Shown piece by piece: positions 15,985-46,326 of a DNA stretch of 52,469 nt (the first letter of the stretch is position 1; every line of letters begins with the position of its first letter). The notes below the pieces were generated by a model, which made no database searches, was not told the DNA's origin, and saw only the letters and a list, made by a program, of their open reading frames with translations. This stretch comes from a virus. A program made the position numbers and the translations under genes. The stretch covers positions 1 through 52,469 of the IMG/VR virus record IMGVR_UViG_3300030331_002818; one strand, given 5' to 3'.

Positions 15985-16314
15985 ATGACAGTATATATAA
16001 CACAGGAGATGCGAGGTCGTGATATTACGGACGCCACAAGTTTCGGGGATATCGAAATATTACTTCCCGCAGGAGAGCAAGCCAGCTACTCTACACAACC
16101 TACTATTAGAAAATTGGGCAGAAAGCTCGGCAAGTTTACCGACGAAGATTATCTACTTCTTGCAGGAGATCCCGCTGCTATTGCTTTAGCTGCTGCTGTA
16201 GCTGCACGAGCAAATGGCGGTAGGTTTAAAATGTTGAAGTGGGATAGACAAGAAGGTAAATACTTTCCTTTAAAAGCAGACCTTAACTTTCGTCCAGGAG
16301 ATAGCGATGGTTGA
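15985..16314 (+). CDS. Conserved early phage protein, unknown function
   Basis: The 109-residue first gene of the plus-strand early operon starts at ATG. Another ATG six bases upstream opens only a 14-codon frame. It begins MTVYITQEMRGRDITDAT and contains an Ala-rich helix (AIALAAAVAARANGG) followed by KWDRQEGKYFPL. No cysteines, signal peptide or membrane segment are present. Similar proteins accompany replication genes in marine podoviruses, but I know of no assigned activity. Its stop overlaps the next start. Confidence 0.65.
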   Translation: MTVYITQEMRGRDITDATSFGDIEILLPAGEQASYSTQPTIRKLGRKLGKFTDEDYLLLAGDPAAIALAAAVAARANGGRFKMLKWDRQEGKYFPLKADLNFRPGDSDG

Positions 16315-16858
16315 TTTTGAAAGTGCAGCCGCAAAGCTCACAACTTTAGATGAAGCTGGTGTTAGCCAAGTAAGTAAGTTAGCACAGATACAGTTAGATT
16401 TAGAGCAGCGTGTGGCTGATTTAGAAGGGGATCTTAAGCAAGCTAAGTTAGAACTTAAAAATATTGCAGAAGATCAGTTGCCAGCAGCAATGGCTGAGCA
16501 TGGAGTAGCAGAGTTTAAATTAGCTGATGGTTCAAGCATCAGTGTTTCTAAATTCTATAGTGCTAGTATACCTCAAGATAAAAAGGATGAAGCCTTTACT
16601 TGGCTAGTGCAGAACGACCACGGTGATTTAATTAAAAACCAAGTCGCCACTAATTTTGTGCGTGGTCAAGAAGAGCAAGCTGAAAAGTTTGCTACCGAGC
16701 TGGTAGAAAGAGGTATGGCTCCCAGCACAAAAAAATGGGTAGAACCCATGACTCTAAAGGCTTGGGTGAGAGAGTCCACCGAAAAAGGTTTAAATATACC
16801 GCATGATTTATTCGGTGTGTTTATTGGTGAAAAATCTAAAATTACGAGGAGTAAATAG
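16307..16858 (+). CDS. Coiled-coil early protein, unknown function
   Basis: This 183-residue protein overlaps the previous gene by eight bases, with AGGAG just before its ATG. Residues about 20-55 form a heptad-rich coiled coil (LDLEQRVADLEGDLKQAKLE). A compact domain follows (ADGSSISVSKFYSASIPQ, then NDHGDLIKNQV) and ends in a basic tail. It lies directly before the SSB-like gene, so a replication or recombination accessory role is plausible. No enzyme motif is visible. Confidence 0.6.
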   Translation: MVDFESAAAKLTTLDEAGVSQVSKLAQIQLDLEQRVADLEGDLKQAKLELKNIAEDQLPAAMAEHGVAEFKLADGSSISVSKFYSASIPQDKKDEAFTWLVQNDHGDLIKNQVATNFVRGQEEQAEKFATELVERGMAPSTKKWVEPMTLKAWVRESTEKGLNIPHDLFGVFIGEKSKITRSK

Positions 16859-16860
16859 TC

Positions 16861-17661
16861 ATGAGTGATGGCAAGCAAGTAGCTGTGAAAAGCAGCAGTG
16901 ATGTCGCAGTAGCGGCACAGTTTGAAGAGTATGGCAGTGCGGGATTTAGTGAAGTAACTGCTGAAGATTTGTCCATACCTTTTATTAGGGTACTGGCACA
17001 GTTAAGTCCACAAGTAAATAAGCGTGATGGCGCATATGTGGAAGGTGCAGAGGCAGGTATGCTTTTTAATACTGTGCTTAATGAAGTGTATGATGGAGTA
17101 GAAGGCATTGAAGTTGTGCCATGCCATTATAATCGTAGGTTTGTAGAGTGGAAGCCACGCGAACAGGGTGGTGGATATGTAACATCATATGAGACTACTG
17201 ATCCTATTGTTAATACCACTACTAAAAACGATGTGGGGCAGGATGTATTACCTGATGGTAATTTACTGAGTAACACTGCTCAGTTTTTTGTACTGTTACT
17301 TCACCCTGAGCTTGGTCCGCAACGTGCTTTAATTACGATGTCTTCTACGCAATTAAAGAAGGCTAGGAAGTGGATGACGCAAGCACAATCTATGACCGCT
17401 CAAGGTAAAAATGGTATCTATACTTTACCTCTAATGTCACAGGTTTATAAGGTTGGCACAGTCCAAGAACAGAATGATAAAGGTACATGGTTCGGGTTTG
17501 ATATAACTCGCGTACGTGGGCTTGACCTTTCTTACGAAGATGATAAACAACTGTTCGCTACGGCTTTACAGTTTGCTGAATCTATTAAAGCTGGTGAAGT
17601 GCAGGTCAAAGAAGATAAATCTGCACAAATGCAAGATGATACTGGTGATAACATAATGTAG
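16861..17661 (+). CDS. Putative single-stranded DNA-binding protein
   Basis: The 266-residue protein starts two bases after the previous stop. A conserved core runs from LSIPFIRVLAQLSPQVNK through GMLFNTVLNEVYDG and GIEVVPCHYNRRFVEW. The C-terminus is acidic and ends in DDTGDNIM, reminiscent of the acidic tails of ssDNA-binding proteins that recruit partners. Proteins of this type sit before primase/helicase genes in marine podoviruses. The SSB assignment rests on context and the tail; I cannot confirm an OB fold by eye. Confidence 0.5.
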   Translation: MSDGKQVAVKSSSDVAVAAQFEEYGSAGFSEVTAEDLSIPFIRVLAQLSPQVNKRDGAYVEGAEAGMLFNTVLNEVYDGVEGIEVVPCHYNRRFVEWKPREQGGGYVTSYETTDPIVNTTTKNDVGQDVLPDGNLLSNTAQFFVLLLHPELGPQRALITMSSTQLKKARKWMTQAQSMTAQGKNGIYTLPLMSQVYKVGTVQEQNDKGTWFGFDITRVRGLDLSYEDDKQLFATALQFAESIKAGEVQVKEDKSAQMQDDTGDNIM

Positions 17662-17667
17662 TTCAAT

Positions 17668-17689
17668 GATGGGGGTTGATCGCCCCATC
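17668..17689 (+). promoter_or_regulatory. Short GC-rich hairpin after the SSB-like gene
   Basis: GATGGGG and CCCCATC form a perfect seven-base-pair stem around an eight-base loop, starting six bases after the stop codon. It is followed at once by a larger hairpin, so the two form a tandem structure. Confidence 0.7.
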
Positions 17690-17694
17690 GTTGC

Positions 17695-17740
17695 GGAGCG
17701 GTGTACTTTCGCTTGCGAGTGTACACCGTTCCACCTTTTT
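17695..17740 (+). terminator. Intrinsic terminator or attenuator before the primase gene
   Basis: GGAGCGGTGTAC pairs with GTACACCGTTCC (12 base pairs, one G-T wobble), the loop contains a nested CGC/GCG, and CCACCTTTTT follows. This is terminator-like, yet the primase ribosome site GGAGG starts only four bases later and no separate promoter is obvious. Partial termination or processing that sets the SSB-to-primase ratio is a reasonable inference. Confidence 0.65.
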
Positions 17741-17753
17741 GTTGGAGGATACC

Positions 17754-19277
17754 GTGTCACTTGCACAAAGATTTTATGATTTATTTAAAGGCAGCGATAT
17801 TGCTCACGGCACTTACATCGTAAAGAGTAGCCGTGGTAGCGATGGCAAAAAACAAGGTCAAGCTACTGTTTTACGTGAGCCAACCACTGTGGATATGTGG
17901 GAAGAACATTTAAAAGGTGGCACAGGGTTAGGTATTATACCTATCCGTAGTGATAACTTATGTCAATGGGGTGCTATAGATATAGACCAGTACGATGTTA
18001 GTCACAAAGATTTAGTGACTACCTTACGTAATAATAAAATACCAGCCGTTGTCGGCAGGACTAAATCAGGTGGAGCGCATGTCTGGGTATTTTTAACTGA
18101 GCCTATAGAAGCTGAAGATGTACAAAGGCGTATGACAGAGTTGAGTGCCGCCCTTGGTTACTCAGGCAGTGAAATATTCCCTAAACAAACAACTATATTA
18201 AAAGACCGTGGTGATACAGGTAATTTTTTAAATATGCCATATCACGGCGGCGATAATTCTACACGTTATGCTTTTAATGATGAGGGTGAGGCGTTAGGCA
18301 CAGAACAGTTTTTAGAATACGCACAATCGTTTATTCTTACTCCTAATAAATTTCTAAAACTAAATATGAGCTTTGGCACAAAAGATGGCATACTAGAAGA
18401 AGGTCCTCCGTGTCTACAGCATTTATGTAGTAAAGGATTTGGTGAAGGTTCGCGTAATAACGCTTTGTTTAATCTTGGTGTTTACGCTCGAATGTTTGAT
18501 GAGGAAAATTGGGAAGTATTAGTTCAGCGGTATAATATGGATTATTTACACCCTCCCCTTAGTCATAATGAGGTGGGTGTTGTAATACGGCAGTTAAAAA
18601 AGAAAGATTACTTTTATAAGTGTGATGATCAACCAATAAAACCTTTCTGCGATAAAGAAATATGTAAGGGCAGAAAGTATGGTGTCGGTCCGACAGGTGT
18701 GGGCAATGATATGTCCAGCCTTACAAAAATTGATGGTGACCCACCCATATGGATATTAGATGTAGATGGAGAAAGGTTAGAACTTTCCACTAATGGTTTA
18801 ACCAGTCAAGCACAGTTTCAAAAAGAATGTGTTTCACAAATAAATAAGTTCCCTGTAACTGTAAATCAAAGAGCATGGCAGACAAGAATCCAAATGCTTT
18901 TAGATAATTTAACTATTATTGAAGTGCCACCAGATGCCACAATTAAGGGAGAGTTTGAAGATTTATTACATGCCTTTTGTTGCGAGAGAGCCAAGGGGGA
19001 AGACCGCGAGGATATCTTGCAAGGCGTGGCTGTTTGGGTAGATGAAAGAGTTTACTTTCAGGTAAAAGATATTAAAAAGCACTTGTCCGTAAACGACTTT
19101 AACCATTACACTTCTAATAAGATTACACTCCGTTTACAGAACATAGAAGCAGAAAAAATGTTCTGGCGTGTAAGAGGAAAAGGTGTTCATGTTTGGTCGT
19201 TACCCCAAGAGTTTTTTCAAGGGGAGGATGTTAATATCCCGTTGCCAGACTTACCAGTAGCAGATGGGATTATTTAG
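17754..19277 (+). CDS. Archaeo-eukaryotic-type primase (AEP), TOTE-primase-like
   Basis: I chose the GTG after TTGGAGGATACC as start (507 residues) because an upstream frame extension runs through the terminator hairpin. Catalytic features are visible: an acidic pair in GAIDIDQYD (Asp76, Asp78), the SGGAH motif at 105-109 and FPKQ near 150. GNFLNMPYHGG is typical of phage and TOTE-type AEPs. A C-terminal segment (YKCDDQPIKPFCDKEICKGR) holds a cysteine cluster that may bind zinc or an iron-sulphur centre. It would synthesise primers for polymerase A. The SF1 helicase gene starts in its stop codon (TAGTG). Confidence 0.85.
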   Translation: MSLAQRFYDLFKGSDIAHGTYIVKSSRGSDGKKQGQATVLREPTTVDMWEEHLKGGTGLGIIPIRSDNLCQWGAIDIDQYDVSHKDLVTTLRNNKIPAVVGRTKSGGAHVWVFLTEPIEAEDVQRRMTELSAALGYSGSEIFPKQTTILKDRGDTGNFLNMPYHGGDNSTRYAFNDEGEALGTEQFLEYAQSFILTPNKFLKLNMSFGTKDGILEEGPPCLQHLCSKGFGEGSRNNALFNLGVYARMFDEENWEVLVQRYNMDYLHPPLSHNEVGVVIRQLKKKDYFYKCDDQPIKPFCDKEICKGRKYGVGPTGVGNDMSSLTKIDGDPPIWILDVDGERLELSTNGLTSQAQFQKECVSQINKFPVTVNQRAWQTRIQMLLDNLTIIEVPPDATIKGEFEDLLHAFCCERAKGEDREDILQGVAVWVDERVYFQVKDIKKHLSVNDFNHYTSNKITLRLQNIEAEKMFWRVRGKGVHVWSLPQEFFQGEDVNIPLPDLPVADGII

Positions 19278-22261: not shown

Positions 22262-22861
22262 ATGTTTTATGCAATATGTGAAGCTACTCCAGGAAGCTCT
22301 GGATCTCCTTACACAGTATATAGGTTTGCTACGCTAGAATCTTTAAAAGAGTGTGAAGCGGTAAACGAGTATAGCATAATTTATAACGGTGAATCACCTA
22401 GACAATTAGTTGAGTTTTGCTCAATAGCAGAGCTACATGATGTAGCTTTTAATTTAGGTGGGGACACAACATTTGTTTCCCATCAACAAGCGGCTGACCA
22501 TGTGCATGAGGCAGTGGTTAAAAAAGCCAAAGTATGGAAACCTGAAGAGGAGCCAAGTATGTCTAACATACATGTAGATCAGTTTAATAATAAAGCACAG
22601 AAACATGAAGCAGAGGTAAAAGAAGCTAAGAAACCTCGTACTCGTTTTAGAAATGATGCTCGCATTATTGTGTTGAAAGATACACCCACTGTTCGTGAGG
22701 GTACTAATCGTTACCGTAATATGAAAGTAATTATGGAAAGTGCTACGGTTGGCGAAGCCCTAGCTAATCTTCGTGCATTAAACCCTGCTCCAGGATGTGG
22801 TGTTGATATTAGGATAGCGATAGAAGCTGGTGTTATAAAATTGGATTGGCAGGAGCAATAA
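22262..22861 (+). CDS. Two-domain phage protein with DNA-binding-like C-terminus
   Basis: The 199-residue protein follows CATAGAAAGGGAGATGTAA. The N-terminal domain (about residues 1-85) is of unknown fold. A charged Lys/Glu linker leads to a C-terminal domain (FRNDARIIVLKDTPTVREGT, then YRNMKVIM and ATVGEAL..LRALNP) repeated in many phage proteins next to replication genes. The C-terminal pattern could be winged-helix-like, which is inference. It ends three bases before the hypermodification gene and may be co-transcribed with it. Confidence 0.55.
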   Translation: MFYAICEATPGSSGSPYTVYRFATLESLKECEAVNEYSIIYNGESPRQLVEFCSIAELHDVAFNLGGDTTFVSHQQAADHVHEAVVKKAKVWKPEEEPSMSNIHVDQFNNKAQKHEAEVKEAKKPRTRFRNDARIIVLKDTPTVREGTNRYRNMKVIMESATVGEALANLRALNPAPGCGVDIRIAIEAGVIKLDWQEQ

Positions 22862-22863
22862 CC

Positions 22864-23760
22864 ATGTTGCCCGAAGCTGTAGAAAGTTACTTCGGTTGGA
22901 TTAATGAGCGGCACTCGATATACCAGCGTAGGTTATCGGGTGCGCCACCACCTTGGACTGATGACCCCATTTTGCAAGAATATAAATTTACAAACCCTTT
23001 TCGTGAGAATGATAGGGTAACTGTATGGATGCGGCAAAATTGGACAAAGCCAAACGATAATCGTTCACATAGTGAAATGATATTTAATTGTTGTCTGTTT
23101 CGTATGGTTGGCACAAGTGAGTTTGCCGAGGATCATGGGTGGGTGGAAGATTTTAACCCACAAAAAACCAAACACCTTATTGATTCAAGACTTTCTCTTG
23201 GTAAAAGAACATTTACTGGTGCATATATAATCACTAACCAAGGACTCAAAGCACCAAAGTCAGAGGTAGTAGTTGACCATTTCCTCACGCCCATATGGGA
23301 AAATAAAGAAACGCTGGCGAAGATTGCCCAACAAACGCAGTCGCTCCAAGCGTTACATGAAGCGATGGGTGCGTATAAAGGGTGGGGAGGAGGAGGTTTT
23401 ATGTCATACGAAGTGGTTACCGACCTCAACTACACACCTGTATTGGATAAGGCAAAAGACCGTTTTAGTTGGGCTAACGCGGGTCCAGGAGCTATACGAG
23501 GAATTAACCGTATCCTCGGAAGAGATTTAAAAAAGGGTATGACCCAGCCTATAGCTAACGAACACATGGTCAGGTTATTAAAACATGCACCTTATCATGT
23601 TTTAAAACATGTGCCTCTTGATCAGGTAGATATGCGTACGATTGAGCATAGCTTATGTGAGTGGGATAAATATGAGCGTGTAAGGTTAGGGCAAGGTAGA
23701 CCAAGAAGTATTTATCACCCTACTTTATTAACAGATACACCAAAAGGAGCCGTAGAATGA
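22864..23760 (+). CDS. DNA base hypermodification protein (thymine pyrophosphorylase / hmdU DNA kinase helical family)
   Basis: I chose the ATG after AGGAGCAATAACC (298 residues). The sequence carries the family pattern strongly: FFGWINER-like opening (YFGWINERHSIYQRR), PWTDDPILQEYKFTN, NDRVTVWMRQNW, GAYIITN, FMSYEVVTDLNYT, NAGPGAIRGINRILGR and a terminal CEWDKYERVRLGQGRPRS. This matches the alpha-glutamyl/putrescinyl-thymine pyrophosphorylase and 5-hydroxymethyl-dU DNA kinase helical-domain superfamily. These enzymes act on hydroxymethyl-uracil in DNA during thymine hypermodification in phages such as SP10 and phiW-14. No P-loop kinase is fused to it. ATGA overlap with the glycosyltransferase implies one pathway. 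Confidence 0.82.
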   Translation: MLPEAVESYFGWINERHSIYQRRLSGAPPPWTDDPILQEYKFTNPFRENDRVTVWMRQNWTKPNDNRSHSEMIFNCCLFRMVGTSEFAEDHGWVEDFNPQKTKHLIDSRLSLGKRTFTGAYIITNQGLKAPKSEVVVDHFLTPIWENKETLAKIAQQTQSLQALHEAMGAYKGWGGGGFMSYEVVTDLNYTPVLDKAKDRFSWANAGPGAIRGINRILGRDLKKGMTQPIANEHMVRLLKHAPYHVLKHVPLDQVDMRTIEHSLCEWDKYERVRLGQGRPRSIYHPTLLTDTPKGAVE

Positions 23761-25031
23761 AGTTTCTAATGACAATGTTTCAAATACAAGATTACGGTGG
23801 GATCATCAACCATGCCGAGTATCTTGCTAAAGGTTTAAAAGAGTTAGGCCATGAAGTTGATTTTACAATGCTTGTTCCTAAAAATAAGGTGGCGGGAAAC
23901 AGCTCTCCACCAAAAAACTTTGATCAATACCGTAAGGTCGGAACAGGATATTTACACCATCAAGCTAGGGGGTGGGTCGGTCTGCCAAAAGTGCCTTACC
24001 TTTCTAAATATCACAGGGATTTATTTAAACAGAAAGCCGCCAAATATGATGCTGTTTTATGGCATATTCCTGTACCCACTATGAGTAAAGAAAATAAAGG
24101 TATTACCGATTGGTTAGATTTGTACGGCCATGGCACTAAAAACATAGCCATCATACATGATGGTAATTTACCTGAGTTATACCCTCATTTAATACATGTA
24201 CATGAGATGTTTCATTCTGCCGTGTGTGTACATGAGTCAGCTATGGTTTCTGGAGACATGTTGCCCATACCACGCAAATTAATAGTAAATCCTTTTGATG
24301 TAAGTAAGGCTGATGGTTGGACTGACTTCGAAAGGCGAGAAGGGTTTGCAGCTATTCAAGTTTTTAAGGCTTGGAAGCGTGTAGATACTTTAATTCGTGC
24401 CATAAGATATATGGATAATAGTGAGTGTAAGCTCATAGGTGGAGAAGGTATTGAGTACCGATACATGACTAGTCCTGATAAATGCAAACCAAAATATTTT
24501 GATGAGACAGGTGAGCGCATATGGGATAGAGCCAAGCGTTATGGTATGCAGCACCTAGGAACTGTTCCAAATGATAAAGTGTTAGAAATATTAAAAACAG
24601 TCAAACTACAAATTGATCCAAGCTATAGTAAAAAATACTCTAGCTTCGGCGCACATTTTAATAGGACTACTGTAGAAGCAATAATCTGCGGCGCAGTTCC
24701 CGTAGCTACTGATTGGGGTATGTGGAACAGTGAAATATTTAAGGCTGGAGAAAATTATATAGAGATTCCCGCTGAGGGTAAAACATTTGTGATCGCTGAT
24801 ATTATCGATGATGCAGTGCATGATAAACAACAATGGATTCGTATAAAAGAAAACAATCTAAAATTGTTAGAGCTATTTGATATGCGTAATGTAGCTCAAA
24901 GCTATGTTGATTTAGTAAACAGTAATCAAGGATTACCTATTGGCACTCCCGATACAAAAGCCCTGCAAAAATGCCAAAAAAACTTAGAGTTCTTTGGTAT
25001 TGGCTCTACAGACCCCGTTCGAGTGGCTTAG
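23757..25031 (+). CDS. GT-B type glycosyltransferase, candidate DNA base glycosyltransferase
   Basis: The 424-residue protein begins in an ATGA overlap with the hypermodification gene. The N-terminal Rossmann-like half opens MKFLMTMFQIQDYGGIINHA with YLAKGLKELGHEVDF, the acceptor domain pattern of GT4-like enzymes. The C-terminal half has GFAAIQVFKAWKRVDTLIRA, HLGTVPNDKVLEIL and EAIICGAVPVATDWG, the typical nucleotide-sugar-binding domain. There is no signal peptide or membrane segment, so a cytosolic acceptor is likely. Given the coupling, DNA carrying a modified thymine is the most attractive acceptor. A surface-glycan or host-directed role remains possible. Confidence 0.78.
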   Translation: MKFLMTMFQIQDYGGIINHAEYLAKGLKELGHEVDFTMLVPKNKVAGNSSPPKNFDQYRKVGTGYLHHQARGWVGLPKVPYLSKYHRDLFKQKAAKYDAVLWHIPVPTMSKENKGITDWLDLYGHGTKNIAIIHDGNLPELYPHLIHVHEMFHSAVCVHESAMVSGDMLPIPRKLIVNPFDVSKADGWTDFERREGFAAIQVFKAWKRVDTLIRAIRYMDNSECKLIGGEGIEYRYMTSPDKCKPKYFDETGERIWDRAKRYGMQHLGTVPNDKVLEILKTVKLQIDPSYSKKYSSFGAHFNRTTVEAIICGAVPVATDWGMWNSEIFKAGENYIEIPAEGKTFVIADIIDDAVHDKQQWIRIKENNLKLLELFDMRNVAQSYVDLVNSNQGLPIGTPDTKALQKCQKNLEFFGIGSTDPVRVA

Positions 25032-25089
25032 TGTTTTTAGGCCACCAACCTACCACCCATAACCTTAGATACGATCGAGGAGGCTTTAT

Positions 25090-26067
25090 ATGCGGTCAAT
25101 TTTAGCTAGGGGTGTAAGTGAAGCCCTCTATATAGGGCAACAAGCCTTATTTTCATCAGGTAAGCAGGTTGAAACACGTAATGGTCCCGTGTTAGAATTT
25201 GATACTCCTGTTATGACAACTTACACCCATAGTCGTGAGAGAGTTCTGTTTTACCCAGAACGTGATGCTAACCCATATTTTCATTTAATGGAAAGTTTAT
25301 GGATGTTGGCAGGGCGTAATGATGTGCCATGGATTTTAAGTTTTAATGGTCGCATGAATACATATAGTGATGATGGTAAAACTTTCCACGGTGCTTATGG
25401 ATACAGATGGAGGGAGTGGTTTGGTAAAGATCAATTAAAAACTGTTCTGTTTAGATTAGGCACTTACCGTAATGATCGTAGGGCTGTGTTAGGTATATGG
25501 GATCCTCACCAAGACTTAGTTGAAACCAACGATGGTAAAGATTACCCCTGTAATACCCAGATATATTTTTGGGAGCGTAGGGGTGAATTAAATATGACTG
25601 TAACTAATCGTAGTAATGATATGATCTGGGGTGCGTATGGTGCTAATGCTGTTCATATGTCTGTCTTGTTAGAGTATATGGCTGCGATGCTCGGATATGC
25701 TGTAGGCACGTATTATCAATTTAGTAATAACCTTCATGCGTATACAGATGTTTTAAAAAAGTTAGAAGGTATGCAAGCAGATTATGAACCATATCTTACA
25801 TTAGCCGAGGATGGATTAAGTTATAACCCACCATCTTTAGTTGATGATCCTGATACATTTGATCAAGAACTGCAAGAATGGTTTTTAGATGAAGCAAGAG
25901 TAACTTACAATAATGTTTATTTAGGTACGACTTGTGGAAATATGCGTAAATCGTGGAGGTTTTGGAAGAGTAAAAATTATCAAAATGCTTTTCATTGTGC
26001 CAATGCAATAGAAGATCGCGCATGGCGTAAAGCCTGTATAGAATGGCTGCAAAGGAGAATTAAGTGA
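25090..26067 (+). CDS. Thymidylate synthase family enzyme, candidate dUMP hydroxymethylase
   Basis: The 325-residue protein follows GAGGAGGCTTTAT. ThyA-fold signatures are clear: FHLMESLWMLAGRNDV, the catalytic cysteine in DYPCNTQ (Cys154), and NRSNDMIWGAYGANAVH (residues 173-189). Asn186 occupies the position that in ThyA selects uracil over cytosine, so dUMP is the likely substrate. The enzyme is longer than E. coli ThyA (264 residues), and its C-terminus lacks the usual closing motif. In hypermodifying phages this subfamily makes 5-hydroxymethyl-dUMP. Context with the pyrophosphorylase-type gene favours that, but ordinary dTMP synthesis cannot be excluded. The next gene overlaps its stop. 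Confidence 0.8.
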   Translation: MRSILARGVSEALYIGQQALFSSGKQVETRNGPVLEFDTPVMTTYTHSRERVLFYPERDANPYFHLMESLWMLAGRNDVPWILSFNGRMNTYSDDGKTFHGAYGYRWREWFGKDQLKTVLFRLGTYRNDRRAVLGIWDPHQDLVETNDGKDYPCNTQIYFWERRGELNMTVTNRSNDMIWGAYGANAVHMSVLLEYMAAMLGYAVGTYYQFSNNLHAYTDVLKKLEGMQADYEPYLTLAEDGLSYNPPSLVDDPDTFDQELQEWFLDEARVTYNNVYLGTTCGNMRKSWRFWKSKNYQNAFHCANAIEDRAWRKACIEWLQRRIK

Positions 26068-26423
26068 TTAGGGAAGGACATGAAGATTATATGAAACGTA
26101 GATTAAAAGAAGAAGAGGTAAGCTCTGTTATTAAAGAAGTTGGTAAGCTCAGTGTATTAGATCATGTAAAATTAGAAGAAGCTGAGCGATCTTATGGCGA
26201 TAGCTGGAAACAACGCGGTGGTGTTGGTGCTTTTATGATGTTAGCTCGCAAGTGGGATAGACTTGAAAAACAAGTTACAGAGTATAACTACGATGTGTTT
26301 AAGGCTGTGCAAAAAGATAAAAGGCAGGAAGGTATAATAGATGATATACGTGACCTGCGTAGGTATTTATTTCTTGTAGAAGCGGAGATGATTTTACAAG
26401 GCCATGTCAGAAAACAAAAGTAA
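26064..26423 (+). CDS. Small helical protein resembling nucleotide-modification-associated (DUF1599/Nmad1-like) domains
   Basis: The 119-residue protein starts at GTG, overlapping the ThyA-family stop by four bases. The core (RSYGDSWKQRGGVGAFMMLA, then RKWDRLE, and EGIIDDIRDLRRY) has a YG-SW...K-DR...DD--DL--Y layout like DUF1599-type domains, which accompany base-modification genes, and is distantly like MazG-type all-alpha pyrophosphohydrolases. The pairing with the ThyA homologue supports a role in nucleotide metabolism. Family assignment is from pattern memory and moderate. Confidence 0.5.
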   Translation: MIREGHEDYMKRRLKEEEVSSVIKEVGKLSVLDHVKLEEAERSYGDSWKQRGGVGAFMMLARKWDRLEKQVTEYNYDVFKAVQKDKRQEGIIDDIRDLRRYLFLVEAEMILQGHVRKQK

Positions 26424-26580
26424 TTTGGATAAAGAAGTATTGGCTGAGTGTGAGTGCGGAAGAGAAACGAAGATTGTTACTTTTCGTAACTTAAAAAATA
26501 GATGGCCGATATGTAGTAAATGCAAACGACCAATGAAAGTAAAAGGTAATGCAGTACCCATTGTTTCAACCGCCGACTGA
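26404..26580 (+). CDS. 58-residue zinc-ribbon protein
   Basis: A short frame starts at ATG inside the end of the previous gene and ends inside the polymerase gene. The product has two cysteine knuckles, CEC at residues 16-18 and CSKC about 23 residues later, spaced as in zinc ribbons, and a basic segment between them. The codon bias and the overlaps on both sides look like a compact operon gene. It may bind DNA or a partner of the polymerase. No direct evidence of expression. Confidence 0.6.
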   Translation: MSENKSNLDKEVLAECECGRETKIVTFRNLKNRWPICSKCKRPMKVKGNAVPIVSTAD

Positions 26581-28477
26581 GTGGGTTATGCCTGATGGTT
26601 ATCCTGATATTTCTAATGCAGAAGAAGTTGCTATTGATTTAGAAACACGCGATCCTAACCTTACTGTATTAGGAAGTGGTTGGCCTAGAAAAGATGGTCA
26701 TATAATCGGTATAGCCGTGGCAGTGCAAGGTGATCAATGGTACTTCCCCATCAGGCACGAGATCGGTCCTAATTTTGATGTAAATAGAACATTGGGGTGG
26801 TTATCAGATGTTTGTAAAATTGATAGGGATTATATTTTCCATAATGCTCCTTACGATGTTGGCTGGTTGCTCGCAGAAAATGTGTTGGTCAAGGGCAGAA
26901 TCATCGACACTATGGTCGTTGCGCCATTGTTAGATGAAAATAGATTTAGCTATGCGTTAAATGCAGTTGGTAGAGATTACTTACAAGAGCGTAAAAGTGA
27001 AGCTGAATTAAGAGAAGCTGCCGAGGCTTTTGGTATCAATGCAAAAAGTGAGATGTATAAACTTCCTGCTCATCATGTAGGTATGTATGCTGAACAAGAT
27101 GCCGCCCTGACATTAAAACTCTGGCAACATTTTAAAACTTTAATAATAAAAGAAGATATCAAAGATATCTTTGAACTTGAAACTAATGTCCTTAAAACGA
27201 TTATACCAATGCGTGAACGTGGTGTTAGAGTTGATTTAGATAAATGTGAACGTATTAAACAAGAGTTATCACAAAAAGAACAAAAGTTATTAGGATTAAT
27301 AAAAAGACAAACAGGTGTGGAAGTAGAAATATGGGCGGCAGAGAGTGTAGCTAAAGCTTTTGATGCAATGAATCTACCTTACAGTAAAACAGAAAAGACT
27401 GGTGCGCCTAGTTTTACTAAAGGGTTTTTAAGTAATCACCCACACGAAGTGCCGCAAATGATTGTACAGGCTAGGGAATATCAAAAAGCTCGTAGCACAT
27501 TTGTAGATGCTATACTTAAACACCAAATAAACGGACGAATACATGCTGAGTTACATCCTTTACGTAGTGATGGAGGAGGCACAGTTACTGGTAGATTTAG
27601 TTATAGCAACCCTAATCTTCAGCAAATACCAGCAAGGCATGGCGAAATAGGTCCAATGATACGTAGTTTGTTTATACCTGAACAAGACTGTCTATGGGGC
27701 GCATTTGATTACTCCAGCCAAGAACCGCGTATTGTTGTGCATTATGCTAAACTGATGGGCTTCAGAGGGGCTTCTGACTTTGCAGAGCAATATAATTCTG
27801 ACCCACGTACAGATTTTCACCAAATGGCGGCTGATATTGTAGGCGTCCCGCGTAAACAAGCTAAAGATATTAATCTCGGTTTATTTTATGGGATGGGTAG
27901 TAAAAAGTTAGCCGCGAGCCTTGGCTTAGAGTTTGAGGATGCTCAAGAACTGTTCGCCACATACCATGATAAAGTACCTTTTGTACGAGAACTTAGTGAG
28001 TATAGCACTAACCGAGCCAGCTCACGTGGGGTTATTCGTACCTTGTTAGGACGCAGGTGTAGGTTTGATAAGTGGGAACCAAATAAGTATGGGAGTTGGA
28101 AACCTATGACTTATCAAGAAGCCTATGCAGAACATGGTCCTGGAATCAAAAGAGCATTTACATACAAAGCATTAAATAAATTAATCCAAGGCAGTGCGGC
28201 AGATCAAACAAAAGCAGCGATGGTAGCATTAGCTGATGAAGGTATACTACCTATGATTCAAGTGCATGATGAGTTAGATGTATCTGTTGAGTCAGAAGAA
28301 CAAGCAAAAAAGATAACTGAAATTATGCAAGATTGTGTTAAGTTAGAAGTTCCCTCCATAGTAGATGCCGAGTTTGGTCCAAACTGGGGAGAGGCAAAAC
28401 AAACATTCACGGAAAAGCCGTGGTTAAGAGGAATAAAAGATGGCAGCACAGAAATGCAGCATAACATCACGAATTAA
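26549..28477 (+). CDS. Family A DNA polymerase with 3'-5' exonuclease domain
   Basis: The 642-residue protein has an N-terminal proofreading domain with Asp30 and Glu32 (AIDLETRD), Asp103 (HNAPYDVGWLL) and Tyr180/Asp184 (YAEQDAA). The polymerase domain has motif A DYSSQEPR (Asp387), O-helix RKQAKDINLGLFYG (Arg435, Lys439, Tyr447) and motif C VHDE (574-576). Leu443 stands where E. coli Pol I has Phe762. There is no 5' nuclease domain. It starts at ATG 26549 within the zinc-ribbon frame. It replicates the phage genome. The HD hydrolase gene overlaps its 3' end by 38 bases. Confidence 0.95.
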   Translation: MQYPLFQPPTEWVMPDGYPDISNAEEVAIDLETRDPNLTVLGSGWPRKDGHIIGIAVAVQGDQWYFPIRHEIGPNFDVNRTLGWLSDVCKIDRDYIFHNAPYDVGWLLAENVLVKGRIIDTMVVAPLLDENRFSYALNAVGRDYLQERKSEAELREAAEAFGINAKSEMYKLPAHHVGMYAEQDAALTLKLWQHFKTLIIKEDIKDIFELETNVLKTIIPMRERGVRVDLDKCERIKQELSQKEQKLLGLIKRQTGVEVEIWAAESVAKAFDAMNLPYSKTEKTGAPSFTKGFLSNHPHEVPQMIVQAREYQKARSTFVDAILKHQINGRIHAELHPLRSDGGGTVTGRFSYSNPNLQQIPARHGEIGPMIRSLFIPEQDCLWGAFDYSSQEPRIVVHYAKLMGFRGASDFAEQYNSDPRTDFHQMAADIVGVPRKQAKDINLGLFYGMGSKKLAASLGLEFEDAQELFATYHDKVPFVRELSEYSTNRASSRGVIRTLLGRRCRFDKWEPNKYGSWKPMTYQEAYAEHGPGIKRAFTYKALNKLIQGSAADQTKAAMVALADEGILPMIQVHDELDVSVESEEQAKKITEIMQDCVKLEVPSIVDAEFGPNWGEAKQTFTEKPWLRGIKDGSTEMQHNITN

Positions 28478-28973
28478 AACATTAACAACAGTATGGGATG
28501 CTCAGTTTGTACTGAGATATCACACTGTTGCAAATCAATCAGAGAGGCAAACAGTGGGAGCGCATTCGTATGCAGTAAGTGTTTTAATTGATCAGCTATG
28601 GCCTGACAGTTCAAAACAACTCATTATGGCAGCATTATATCACGATGTACCAGAAATAATTTTAGGGGATATTCCAGCAACAGCTAAGTGGTCTTATCCA
28701 GAAATACATCAAGCCTTTGTAAAAGCTGAGAAAAAAGTATTTGAAGATCTTGGTTTGATGTTTGTACTTAGCCCAGAAGAAAAAATACGATTGAAGATGG
28801 CAGATATGCTTGAGTTAGTTTTATATACTCATCGTCATTCGCAGGGCAGTGAGCAAATGAAAATGATAATGCACTCTGGTATGAATTATTTATATGAGAA
28901 ATTTTCTTCGCATAAAGATTTTGAACCAATAAAAAAGGTTCTGGCTCATTATAATTTAGGAGGCGTACCGTGA
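28440..28973 (+). CDS. HD-domain phosphohydrolase, YfbR-like 5'-deoxynucleotidase
   Basis: The 177-residue protein starts after GAGGAATAAAAG inside the polymerase gene. HD-domain metal ligands are visible: His42 in GAHSYAV, His68-Asp69 in ALYHDVPE, and Asp122 in KMADMLE. Glu72 and Asp77 (PEIILGDIPA) match the substrate-site residues of YfbR-type nucleotidases, which remove the phosphate from deoxynucleoside monophosphates. An HD enzyme beside a family A polymerase recalls DatZ next to DpoZ in Z-DNA phages. Here it may remove a normal nucleotide that competes with a modified one. Substrate is unknown. Confidence 0.8.
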   Translation: MAAQKCSITSRIKTLTTVWDAQFVLRYHTVANQSERQTVGAHSYAVSVLIDQLWPDSSKQLIMAALYHDVPEIILGDIPATAKWSYPEIHQAFVKAEKKVFEDLGLMFVLSPEEKIRLKMADMLELVLYTHRHSQGSEQMKMIMHSGMNYLYEKFSSHKDFEPIKKVLAHYNLGGVP

Positions 28974-29248
28974 ACTGCATCAAATGTGGCAAAAAAAGTA
29001 AAGTTTATAACAGCCGACCTCACCAAGATACTATTAAAAGACATAGGAAATGTTTGAAGTGCGGTCATAAATACGCCACATTAGAAGTATTATTTACAGT
29101 AGAAGAATTACCGAAACCTAAACCACCAAAATTGAAACTTGTTAAAAAACCTGTAAGAAAAAAGAAGATTCGGTTCGATGATTTAGATTTAAGTAGAATG
29201 ACTGATGAGGAAATAGAGGCAGCTATATCTAGTGGCGATTATCTGTAA
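28970..29248 (+). CDS. NrdR-like zinc-ribbon protein
   Basis: The 92-residue protein starts at GTG overlapping the HD-gene stop. The first 40 residues (MNCIKCGKKSKVYNSR, then IKRHRKCLKCGHKYATLE) copy the N-terminal zinc ribbon of NrdR, including two CxxC knuckles and the SR..... I.RHR-C spacing. The ATP-cone domain of NrdR is missing; instead there is a Pro/Lys-rich linker and a short acidic helix. It may bind DNA as a transcription factor or act on nucleotide metabolism. Function is inferred only from the ribbon. Confidence 0.7.
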   Translation: MNCIKCGKKSKVYNSRPHQDTIKRHRKCLKCGHKYATLEVLFTVEELPKPKPPKLKLVKKPVRKKKIRFDDLDLSRMTDEEIEAAISSGDYL

Positions 29249-45696: not shown

Positions 45697-45890
45697 ATGA
45701 CCTTTACTTTTACGAAAACATGATTAAGGTTGTTCGCGAGCGATCAGAAGCAGTAAAACAAACTATTTTGTATGGTGCTGTAGCTGATTACACTGCTTTC
45801 AAGGAACTCCGAGCTAAACTCGGTGAGCTTGCACAAACAGAACAGGATTTAAAAACCCTGCTAGAAAAGGTATCAGAACCAGATGGCTAA
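45693..45890 (+). CDS. 65-residue helical protein, unknown function
   Basis: ATGA overlap with the lysozyme gene. The product is a helical bundle candidate (MIKVVRERSEAVKQTILYGA, then FKELRAKLGELAQTEQDLKT) without other motifs. Similar small proteins precede the head genes in related phages. It overlaps the GroES-like gene start by eight bases. Confidence 0.6.
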   Translation: MNDLYFYENMIKVVRERSEAVKQTILYGAVADYTAFKELRAKLGELAQTEQDLKTLLEKVSEPDG

Positions 45891-46326
45891 GACATTACTT
45901 GTCCCAGATTATATTGCTAAACAAAAAGCACAAGAAAAATCAAAAAATACAGACCCCGAAGTTCCCTCTATAGAAAAATTACCGAAACCTACGGGTTGGC
46001 GCATTTTGATTTTACCTTTTAAAGGTAAAAAACAAACCGAGGGAGGTATATTACTACCAGACCAAGCAATTGAGCGCGAAGCTCTTGCTACCGTTTGTGG
46101 TTATGTGCTTAAAGTAGGACCCCTAGCTTACCAAGATCCCAATAAATTCGGTAACCCGAATGACCCTCATGAAAATTGGAAACCGTGGTGTAAAGAGGGT
46201 GATTGGGTAATTTTTGGTCGTTATGCTGGAAGTCGTTTTAAAATAGAGGGTGGCGAAGTTCGTTTACTTAATGATGACGAAATATTAGCCACAATCAATA
46301 ATCCAGAAGATATTCTGCACATTTAA
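45883..46326 (+). CDS. GroES-like co-chaperonin
   Basis: The 147-residue protein carries the Cpn10 fold pattern: PTGWRILILPFKGKKQTEGG, ILLPDQAIEREALATVCGYV, VLKVGP, WCKEGDWVIFGRYAGSRFKI and an ending DDEILATI. It is longer than GroES (about 97) because of an N-terminal extension of roughly 35 residues and an insertion near DPNKFGNPNDPHENW. Phage co-chaperonins such as T4 gp31 work with host GroEL to fold the capsid protein, and this gene lies just before scaffold and capsid genes. Confidence 0.88.
   Translation: MAKTLLVPDYIAKQKAQEKSKNTDPEVPSIEKLPKPTGWRILILPFKGKKQTEGGILLPDQAIEREALATVCGYVLKVGPLAYQDPNKFGNPNDPHENWKPWCKEGDWVIFGRYAGSRFKIEGGEVRLLNDDEILATINNPEDILHI

Follow-up and report, generated by a model that had tools for sequence, protein, structure and literature searches.

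The DNA analysed here, referred to as the window, is the whole 52,469-nucleotide IMG/VR record IMGVR_UViG_3300030331_002818, a viral contig. It derives from an uncultured marine phage that is distant kin of the HTVC023P/027P pelagiphages; the terminases of the Pelagibacter phages HTVC027P and HTVC023P and of phage DSL-LC04 share 58-64% identity with its own (63% for TerL of HTVC027P). On the plus strand, positions 22,864 to 26,423 carry four contiguous genes, which an earlier reading of the letters alone (hereafter the original prediction) had taken for a candidate DNA hypermodification island producing a glycosylated thymine. All four open reading frames (ORFs) were confirmed. They encode a protein of the HMUDK_hel family (HEL), a glycosyltransferase (GT), a ThyA homologue, and a small conserved protein. 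Judged from sequence comparison, the cassette probably makes 5-hydroxymethyluracil (hmdU as the deoxynucleoside) replacing thymine, to which a sugar is then added in DNA. No such cassette was present in the helicase-polymerase interval of HTVC027P, psg01, and DSL-LC04.

Proteins encoded by the cassette

HEL (22864..23760, 298 amino acids) matched the hmdU-kinase-helical profile PF18723 over residues 11-281 with 182.9 bits (cut-off 25; E-value 1.1e-53). Its ATG start lies at 22864, and an in-frame TTG is found at 22846. The motifs noticed previously, GPGAIRGI and CEWDKYERVRLGQGRPRS, were both present. Membership in the hmdU-kinase-helical family was thereby upheld; an identity as amino acid:DNA transferase (ADDT) was not, as the ADDT profile remained below its cut-off on HEL and hhalign gave an E-value of 0.13. 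HEL was 35-38% identical to the kinase-paired HELs of YuA, Sonora, and PaMx11. The residues invariant among these four proteins were R16, D34, N44, R47-E48, D50, T118-G119, D187, W203, N205, G207-P208-G209, R212-G213, R258, E261, C265-E266, and D268-K269. Because the residues common to kinase-paired HELs are retained, HEL is under constraint. The predicted structure (predicted local distance difference test, pLDDT, 91) gave no significant match in a Foldseek search of the PDB and hence is without a solved relative; the best match, MutY at an E-value of 1.4, did not support a DNA glycosylase by fold. We propose that HEL is the subunit that recognizes hmdU in DNA and presents it.

The GT gene (23757..25031, 424 amino acids) starts inside the stop codon of HEL, as described before: HEL ends with TGA and GT begins with ATGA at 23757. 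The protein is a GT4-like enzyme that matched Glycos_transf_1 (PF00534) with 31 bits (cut-off 26.4; E-value 2.2e-7), and its predicted structure (pLDDT 90) has a GT-B fold. The Pfam scan gave no match to the TET-associated glycosyltransferases (TAGT, PF20691), a family that glycosylates DNA, and none to the families of the T4 α- and β-glucosyltransferases (AGT and BGT), so that the likeness to AGT is at the fold level only. In Foldseek, the model matched HepE, PimA, and BshA, and also T4 AGT, including its complexes with hydroxymethyluracil (HMU) DNA. This modelled likeness to AGT is consistent with a DNA acceptor.

The ThyA homologue (25090..26067) matched phrog_5131 (7e-103) and, above the Pfam cut-off, Thymidylat_synt PF00303 (1.6e-19). 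It was aligned with E. coli ThyA, a Mosigvirus thymidylate synthase (TS), T4 gp42, and hydroxymethylase-type enzymes from SP8, YuA, PaMx11, Sonora, MW2, and a ViI-like phage. The catalytic cysteine C154, E68, and the dUMP-selecting N186 were retained, and N186 aligned with N177 of E. coli ThyA, in agreement with the asparagine of deoxyuridine monophosphate (dUMP) type that had been claimed. At D151 and N155 the protein resembled the hydroxymethylase-type enzymes of SP8, YuA, PaMx11, and ViI type, whereas E. coli TS has L143 and H147; the E. coli W80 (a gap here) and the C-terminal PVAI tail were missing. The closest cultured relatives were YuA-like (45% over the full length), followed by SP8-type proteins (approximately 41%), and the best solved relative was a CMP 5-hydroxymethylase. 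By its residues, ThyA thus matches the dUMP-hydroxymethylase signature and not TS proper, and we base the putative hydroxymethylase assignment on these residues together with the similarity.

The fourth gene (26064..26423) overlaps ThyA by four bases, as predicted, and encodes a protein with the signature SYGDSWKQRGGVGAFMMLARKWDRL. Its homologues follow ThyA throughout the family. The DUF1599/Nmad1 identity proposed earlier lacked profile support: there was no DUF1599 match at E ≤ 1 when 31 homologues were scanned singly, and no consistent Pfam match at E ≤ 1 for the protein and 30 homologues.

Partners of HEL in the window and in related phages

In YuA, Sonora, PaMx11, and AIIMS-Plu-RaNi, a small kinase gene directly precedes HEL, overlapping or abutting it. 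The product belongs to the P-loop hmdU kinase family PF18748 in YuA and Sonora, both above the cut-off, and the PaMx11 kinase was found by this profile below the cut-off (9e-5). An ADDT (PF18724) is encoded upstream in YuA, Sonora, and PaMx11. Neither family was found in the window or in 46 relatives searched whole: PF18748 matched 0/47, as well as 0/10 further records, and PF18724 exceeded its cut-off in 0/47 while all three controls were positive. The only other Walker A matches of the window, in a UvrD helicase, in a protein of 1053 amino acids, and in two ORFs located past 42 kb, had no PF18748 match, and an overlooked kinase in another part of the window was therefore rejected. The original prediction had noted the missing kinase correctly; its suggestion that the gene might lie outside the window did not hold, as the 46 whole relatives also lack it. 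By these profiles, the kinase is absent from the whole family and not just off the contig.

When 2.9 million viral contigs were scanned with a profile, 52 GT loci with identities down to 30% were identified, and each contained HEL, ThyA, or both. HEL lay within 2 kb of GT in 46 loci and 5.5 kb away in two, and the contig ended before HEL in the remaining four, in which ThyA adjoins GT. In the two with the larger distance (L071:1137-2420 and L072:1362-2642), GT is located approximately 5.5 kb upstream and HEL abuts ThyA; GT is still in the genome. The linkage also persisted in L142-L145, which have other phage backbones and a different gene order. No GT homologues were found in cultured phages. 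Among 84,980 prokaryote genomes there was one GT match. Its contig is phage-like and carries phage genes along with HEL and ThyA, and a cellular glycan enzyme was rejected on this ground. A GT grouped with envelope-glycan enzymes and unlinked in relatives had been named beforehand as the outcome that would speak against the island; the neighbourhood survey suggested at the same time found GT linked to HEL or ThyA in all 52 viral loci. HEL and ThyA stand beside the GT family of the window in essentially all loci, an arrangement well beyond chance.

Eighty relatives found by HEL shared the order HEL, ThyA, g119, a zinc-ribbon gene, PolA, and usually HD. The slot between HEL and ThyA was occupied by GT4 (the window family), by GTx, by TAGT (PF20691) with a radical S-adenosylmethionine (SAM)/SPASM protein after it, or by GTy. 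GTx is a second GT-B family without a Pfam family; its profile is similar to that of GT4 (E-value 1e-5), and HEL or ThyA was adjacent in 23/23 loci. The TAGT slot gene of L009, for example, matched PF20691 with 9.5e-16; TAGT is the family of the T-even β-glucosyl-HMC-α-glucosyltransferase (PMC13216743). Two closely similar contigs, L005 and L007, share 96.6% identity through the end of HEL (98% in HEL) and 91.8% beyond the slot, and GTx of the former replaces GT4 of the latter exactly between the HEL stop and ThyA. By parsimony, the slot type changed 12 times or more along a HEL tree that was quickly built and is partly unsupported.

Additional genes occur in and around the slot. The radical SAM/SPASM protein accompanied TAGT in 28 of 30 window-family loci (L009:9214-10984 and 27 more), and a radical SAM gene was also found in the GTx context, between HEL and GTx in L177 (3006-4004) and L179. 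It possibly tailors the sugar or the base; no similarity of the TAGT-slot protein to the radical enzyme of M6/YuA was detected. GTy, a protein of approximately 300-340 amino acids without a Pfam match, stands beside HEL in unrelated phages (L078:8889-9905, L206:4097-5005). FkbM methyltransferases were located beside GTs (L016:10950-11597, L048:9988-10728, L144:5330-6001). The FkbM family includes enzymes that O-methylate sugars, and these neighbours suggest methylated sugars. In L142 (7138-7845), GT and the radical SAM gene are separated by a gene for a 235-aa protein that resembles a sulfotransferase or P-loop protein by eye, without Pfam support.

A scan with distant HELs added 80 loci from varied phages, whose neighbours were classified with local profiles: methyltransferase in 25, kinase in 23, TAGT-type GT in 17, GT4 in eight, GTy in two, and no recognized partner in five. 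Together with the window family, 161 HEL loci comprised 106 with a GT, 25 with a methyltransferase, 23 with a kinase, and seven with none. Related contigs are among them, and the numbers do not represent independent events. No locus combined a kinase with a GT or a methyltransferase (0/161), and ADDT occurred exclusively in kinase loci (12/12). Since the reactions of these partners differ, the most economical view is that HEL recognizes hmdU in DNA and the partner acts as the catalyst. The comparison suggests that the conserved HEL marks the base, and that the decorating enzyme, adding a sugar, a phosphate, or perhaps a methyl group, is swapped from phage to phage.

In the 25 methyltransferase contigs (L234-L243, L248, and L250-L263), a SAM-dependent methyltransferase gene overlaps HEL and is followed by ThyA; that of L236 (4117-4980) matched Methyltransf_23 with 4e-10. 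O-methyl-hmdU or another methylated modification is a possible product of these loci. L246 encodes an ADDT, two hmdU-kinase-like proteins, HEL, ThyA, and a second HEL consecutively.

Proposed pathway and its alternatives

We propose, with a probability of roughly 0.68, a kinase-independent hypermodification of thymine, in which ThyA would supply hmdU monophosphate (hmdUMP), HEL would recognize hmdU in DNA, and GT would glycosylate it directly without a phosphate step. As its residues indicate, the ThyA homologue would hydroxymethylate dUMP to hmdUMP. The triphosphate hmdUTP would then be formed and incorporated by the phage family A DNA polymerase (PolA; 26549..28477, plus strand), an ORF syntenic with PolA of YuA, PaMx11, and Sonora. 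The YfbR-like HD 5'-deoxynucleotidase (28440..28973, plus strand; PF12917, 1.1e-10) may help at this stage, with a possible role in the deoxynucleotide pool; YuA gp18 also matched PF12917 (4.8e-9), and an HD gene of the same class adjoins ThyA in YuA, PaMx11, and MW2. HEL would bind hmdU in duplex DNA and present the base, and GT would transfer a sugar from a nucleotide sugar onto the 5-hydroxymethyl oxygen, yielding a base-J-like glycosyl-hmdU. In phages of the M6/YuA type, the same HEL works with a P-loop kinase, the enzyme that phosphorylates hmdU, and in the window this partner would have been exchanged for a glycosyltransferase. The original prediction of an island with a sugar as the final group and without the usual kinase is supported by the residue signatures, the invariable GT-HEL-ThyA linkage, the replacement by TAGT as a known DNA-glycosyltransferase family, and the lack of both kinase and ADDT in the 46 relatives.

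A broader proposal, to which we give even odds, is that HEL is a general reader of hmdU in DNA that presents the base, flipped out, to exchangeable catalytic partners (a kinase, at least four GT families, and a methyltransferase), so that swapping one gene would re-code the thymine decoration; the window product would be a base-J-like glycosyl-hmdU made without a phosphorylated intermediate. The sugar-adding enzyme varies among close relatives probably because modification-dependent defences of the hosts select new decorations.

Several points weigh against the proposed pathway. The best fold and sequence matches of GT were general GT4 enzymes (HepE and PimA), with AGT further down, and the fold is therefore no proof that GT acts on DNA. 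In the EX7E motif typical of GT4 enzymes, GT has Ala/Ser at the position of the first Glu. In trees, four true TSs formed a long separate branch, and an approximately unbiased (AU) test left possible that this branch joins beside the window ThyA family (p 0.31), so that more weight falls on the residue signature. The locus counts, as stated, contain related contigs. Finally, HEL might perform chemistry itself.

This last point leads to the alternative that survives best, although we consider it unlikely: HEL would itself be a catalyst, such as a transferase, that modifies hmdU with an initial group independently of ATP, and GT would add the sugar to that group and not to hmdU. A constant HEL beside a variable GT, the invariant core residues, and the reach of the PF18724 ADDT profile, below its cut-off, into the C-terminal part of HEL agree with such a role. 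However, the kinase and methyltransferase partners are more readily explained if HEL is a recognition subunit than if it carries out a single reaction in all cases, and the comparison of HEL with the ADDT profile was not significant (E-value 0.13). Glycosylation of hmdUMP or hmdUTP before replication, with another job for HEL, is quite improbable. The adjacency of ThyA and GT would agree with it, whereas known glycosylated phage pyrimidines arise after replication (T-even; PMC13390438), and HEL of the YuA/M6 pathway belongs to the DNA kinase step according to its Pfam description. We regard as very improbable that GT and the enzymes replacing it have glycans of the cell surface or the virion as their targets and are present by chance, with hmdU left bare or otherwise modified. 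GT4 enzymes are mostly glycan enzymes, and the top PDB matches were HepE, PimA, and BshA; against this stand the obligatory linkage to HEL or ThyA across several phage backbones that are unrelated (L142-L145, L220-L222) and the replacement of GT by TAGT. That ThyA is an ordinary TS supplying only dTMP beside a decayed pathway, as its fold and the AU test would allow, is hardly credible given its residue signature and the strongly conserved HEL core, which argues that the pathway is not decaying.

Other genes of the window were also observed. An NrdR-like zinc-ribbon protein is encoded at 28970-29248, and a similar gene lies directly 3' of HEL in TAGT-type relatives. A GroES-like co-chaperonin (45883-46326; phrog_3188, 4e-19) stands beside structural genes, and positions 15985-19274 contain genes like gp32/33/34 of cyanophage Pam3, followed by a TOTE-type archaeo-eukaryotic primase.

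Comparison with known systems

The GT families, the partner exclusivity, and the kinase loss appear to be new; in the part of the literature that was covered, no prior report was found of the GT4/GTx families, of the exact exchange in the slot, of the missing kinase, or of HEL partners excluding one another. As stated in 2019, glycosylated hmdU was unreported in phage genomes (PMC6449724). If the proposed pathway is true, it explains the purpose of a kinase-associated protein where no kinase exists, and several new DNA sugars, possibly with methylated hmdU, are predicted in ocean phages. The glycosyltransferases, including GTx and GTy, would be candidate hmdU-specific enzymes and reagents, and the slot would represent a naturally occurring change of DNA decoration through exchange of one gene, of the kind that an arms race against modification-dependent defences should produce.

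Some of these genes have been noted in related phages. According to PMC9599517 (2022), HTVC023P-type pelagiphages carry TS and aG/PT-PPlase1 near PolA as 'DNA hypermodification' partner genes, and some also carry a β-glucosyl-HMC-α-glucosyltransferase, which PMC13216743 identifies as TAGT, and a 5'-deoxynucleotidase; a broader function was suggested. TS, HEL, and a TAGT-type GT are thus already on record there, whereas the GT4-type gene, the swap slot, the absence of kinase and ADDT, and the partner exclusivity are not reported in the passages covered.

The M6/YuA/PaMx11/ViI pathway (Lee et al. 2018, as cited in PMC6449724 and PMC9599517) shares with the window a dUMP-hydroxymethylase-type ThyA, HEL, an HD 5'-deoxynucleotidase, and PolA in near-identical order. 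The window differs in lacking the PF18748 kinase and the PF18724 ADDT, and GT overlaps HEL instead; Nmad5 was not found either. Phage SP-15 also has a glycosylated modified uracil in its DNA, glucosylated dihydroxypentyluracil (PMC5977210), but its base has a different carbon skeleton, and its 10-gene cluster is a separate one. T-even glucosyltransferases and TAGT transfer a sugar onto a 5-hydroxymethyl pyrimidine in DNA (PMC13216743), which is here predicted from the genes. TAGT fills the same slot in relatives of the window, and the GT-B fold is AGT-like. The T-even substrate is 5-hydroxymethylcytosine, however, the window GT is not AGT, BGT, or TAGT by profile, and the window set includes HEL. 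Base J of kinetoplastids (PMC6449724) is made through oxidation of thymine in DNA by JBP, whereas hmdU of the window is predicted to arise as a ThyA-made nucleotide; the predicted product of the window is, like base J, an O-glycosyl hmdU.

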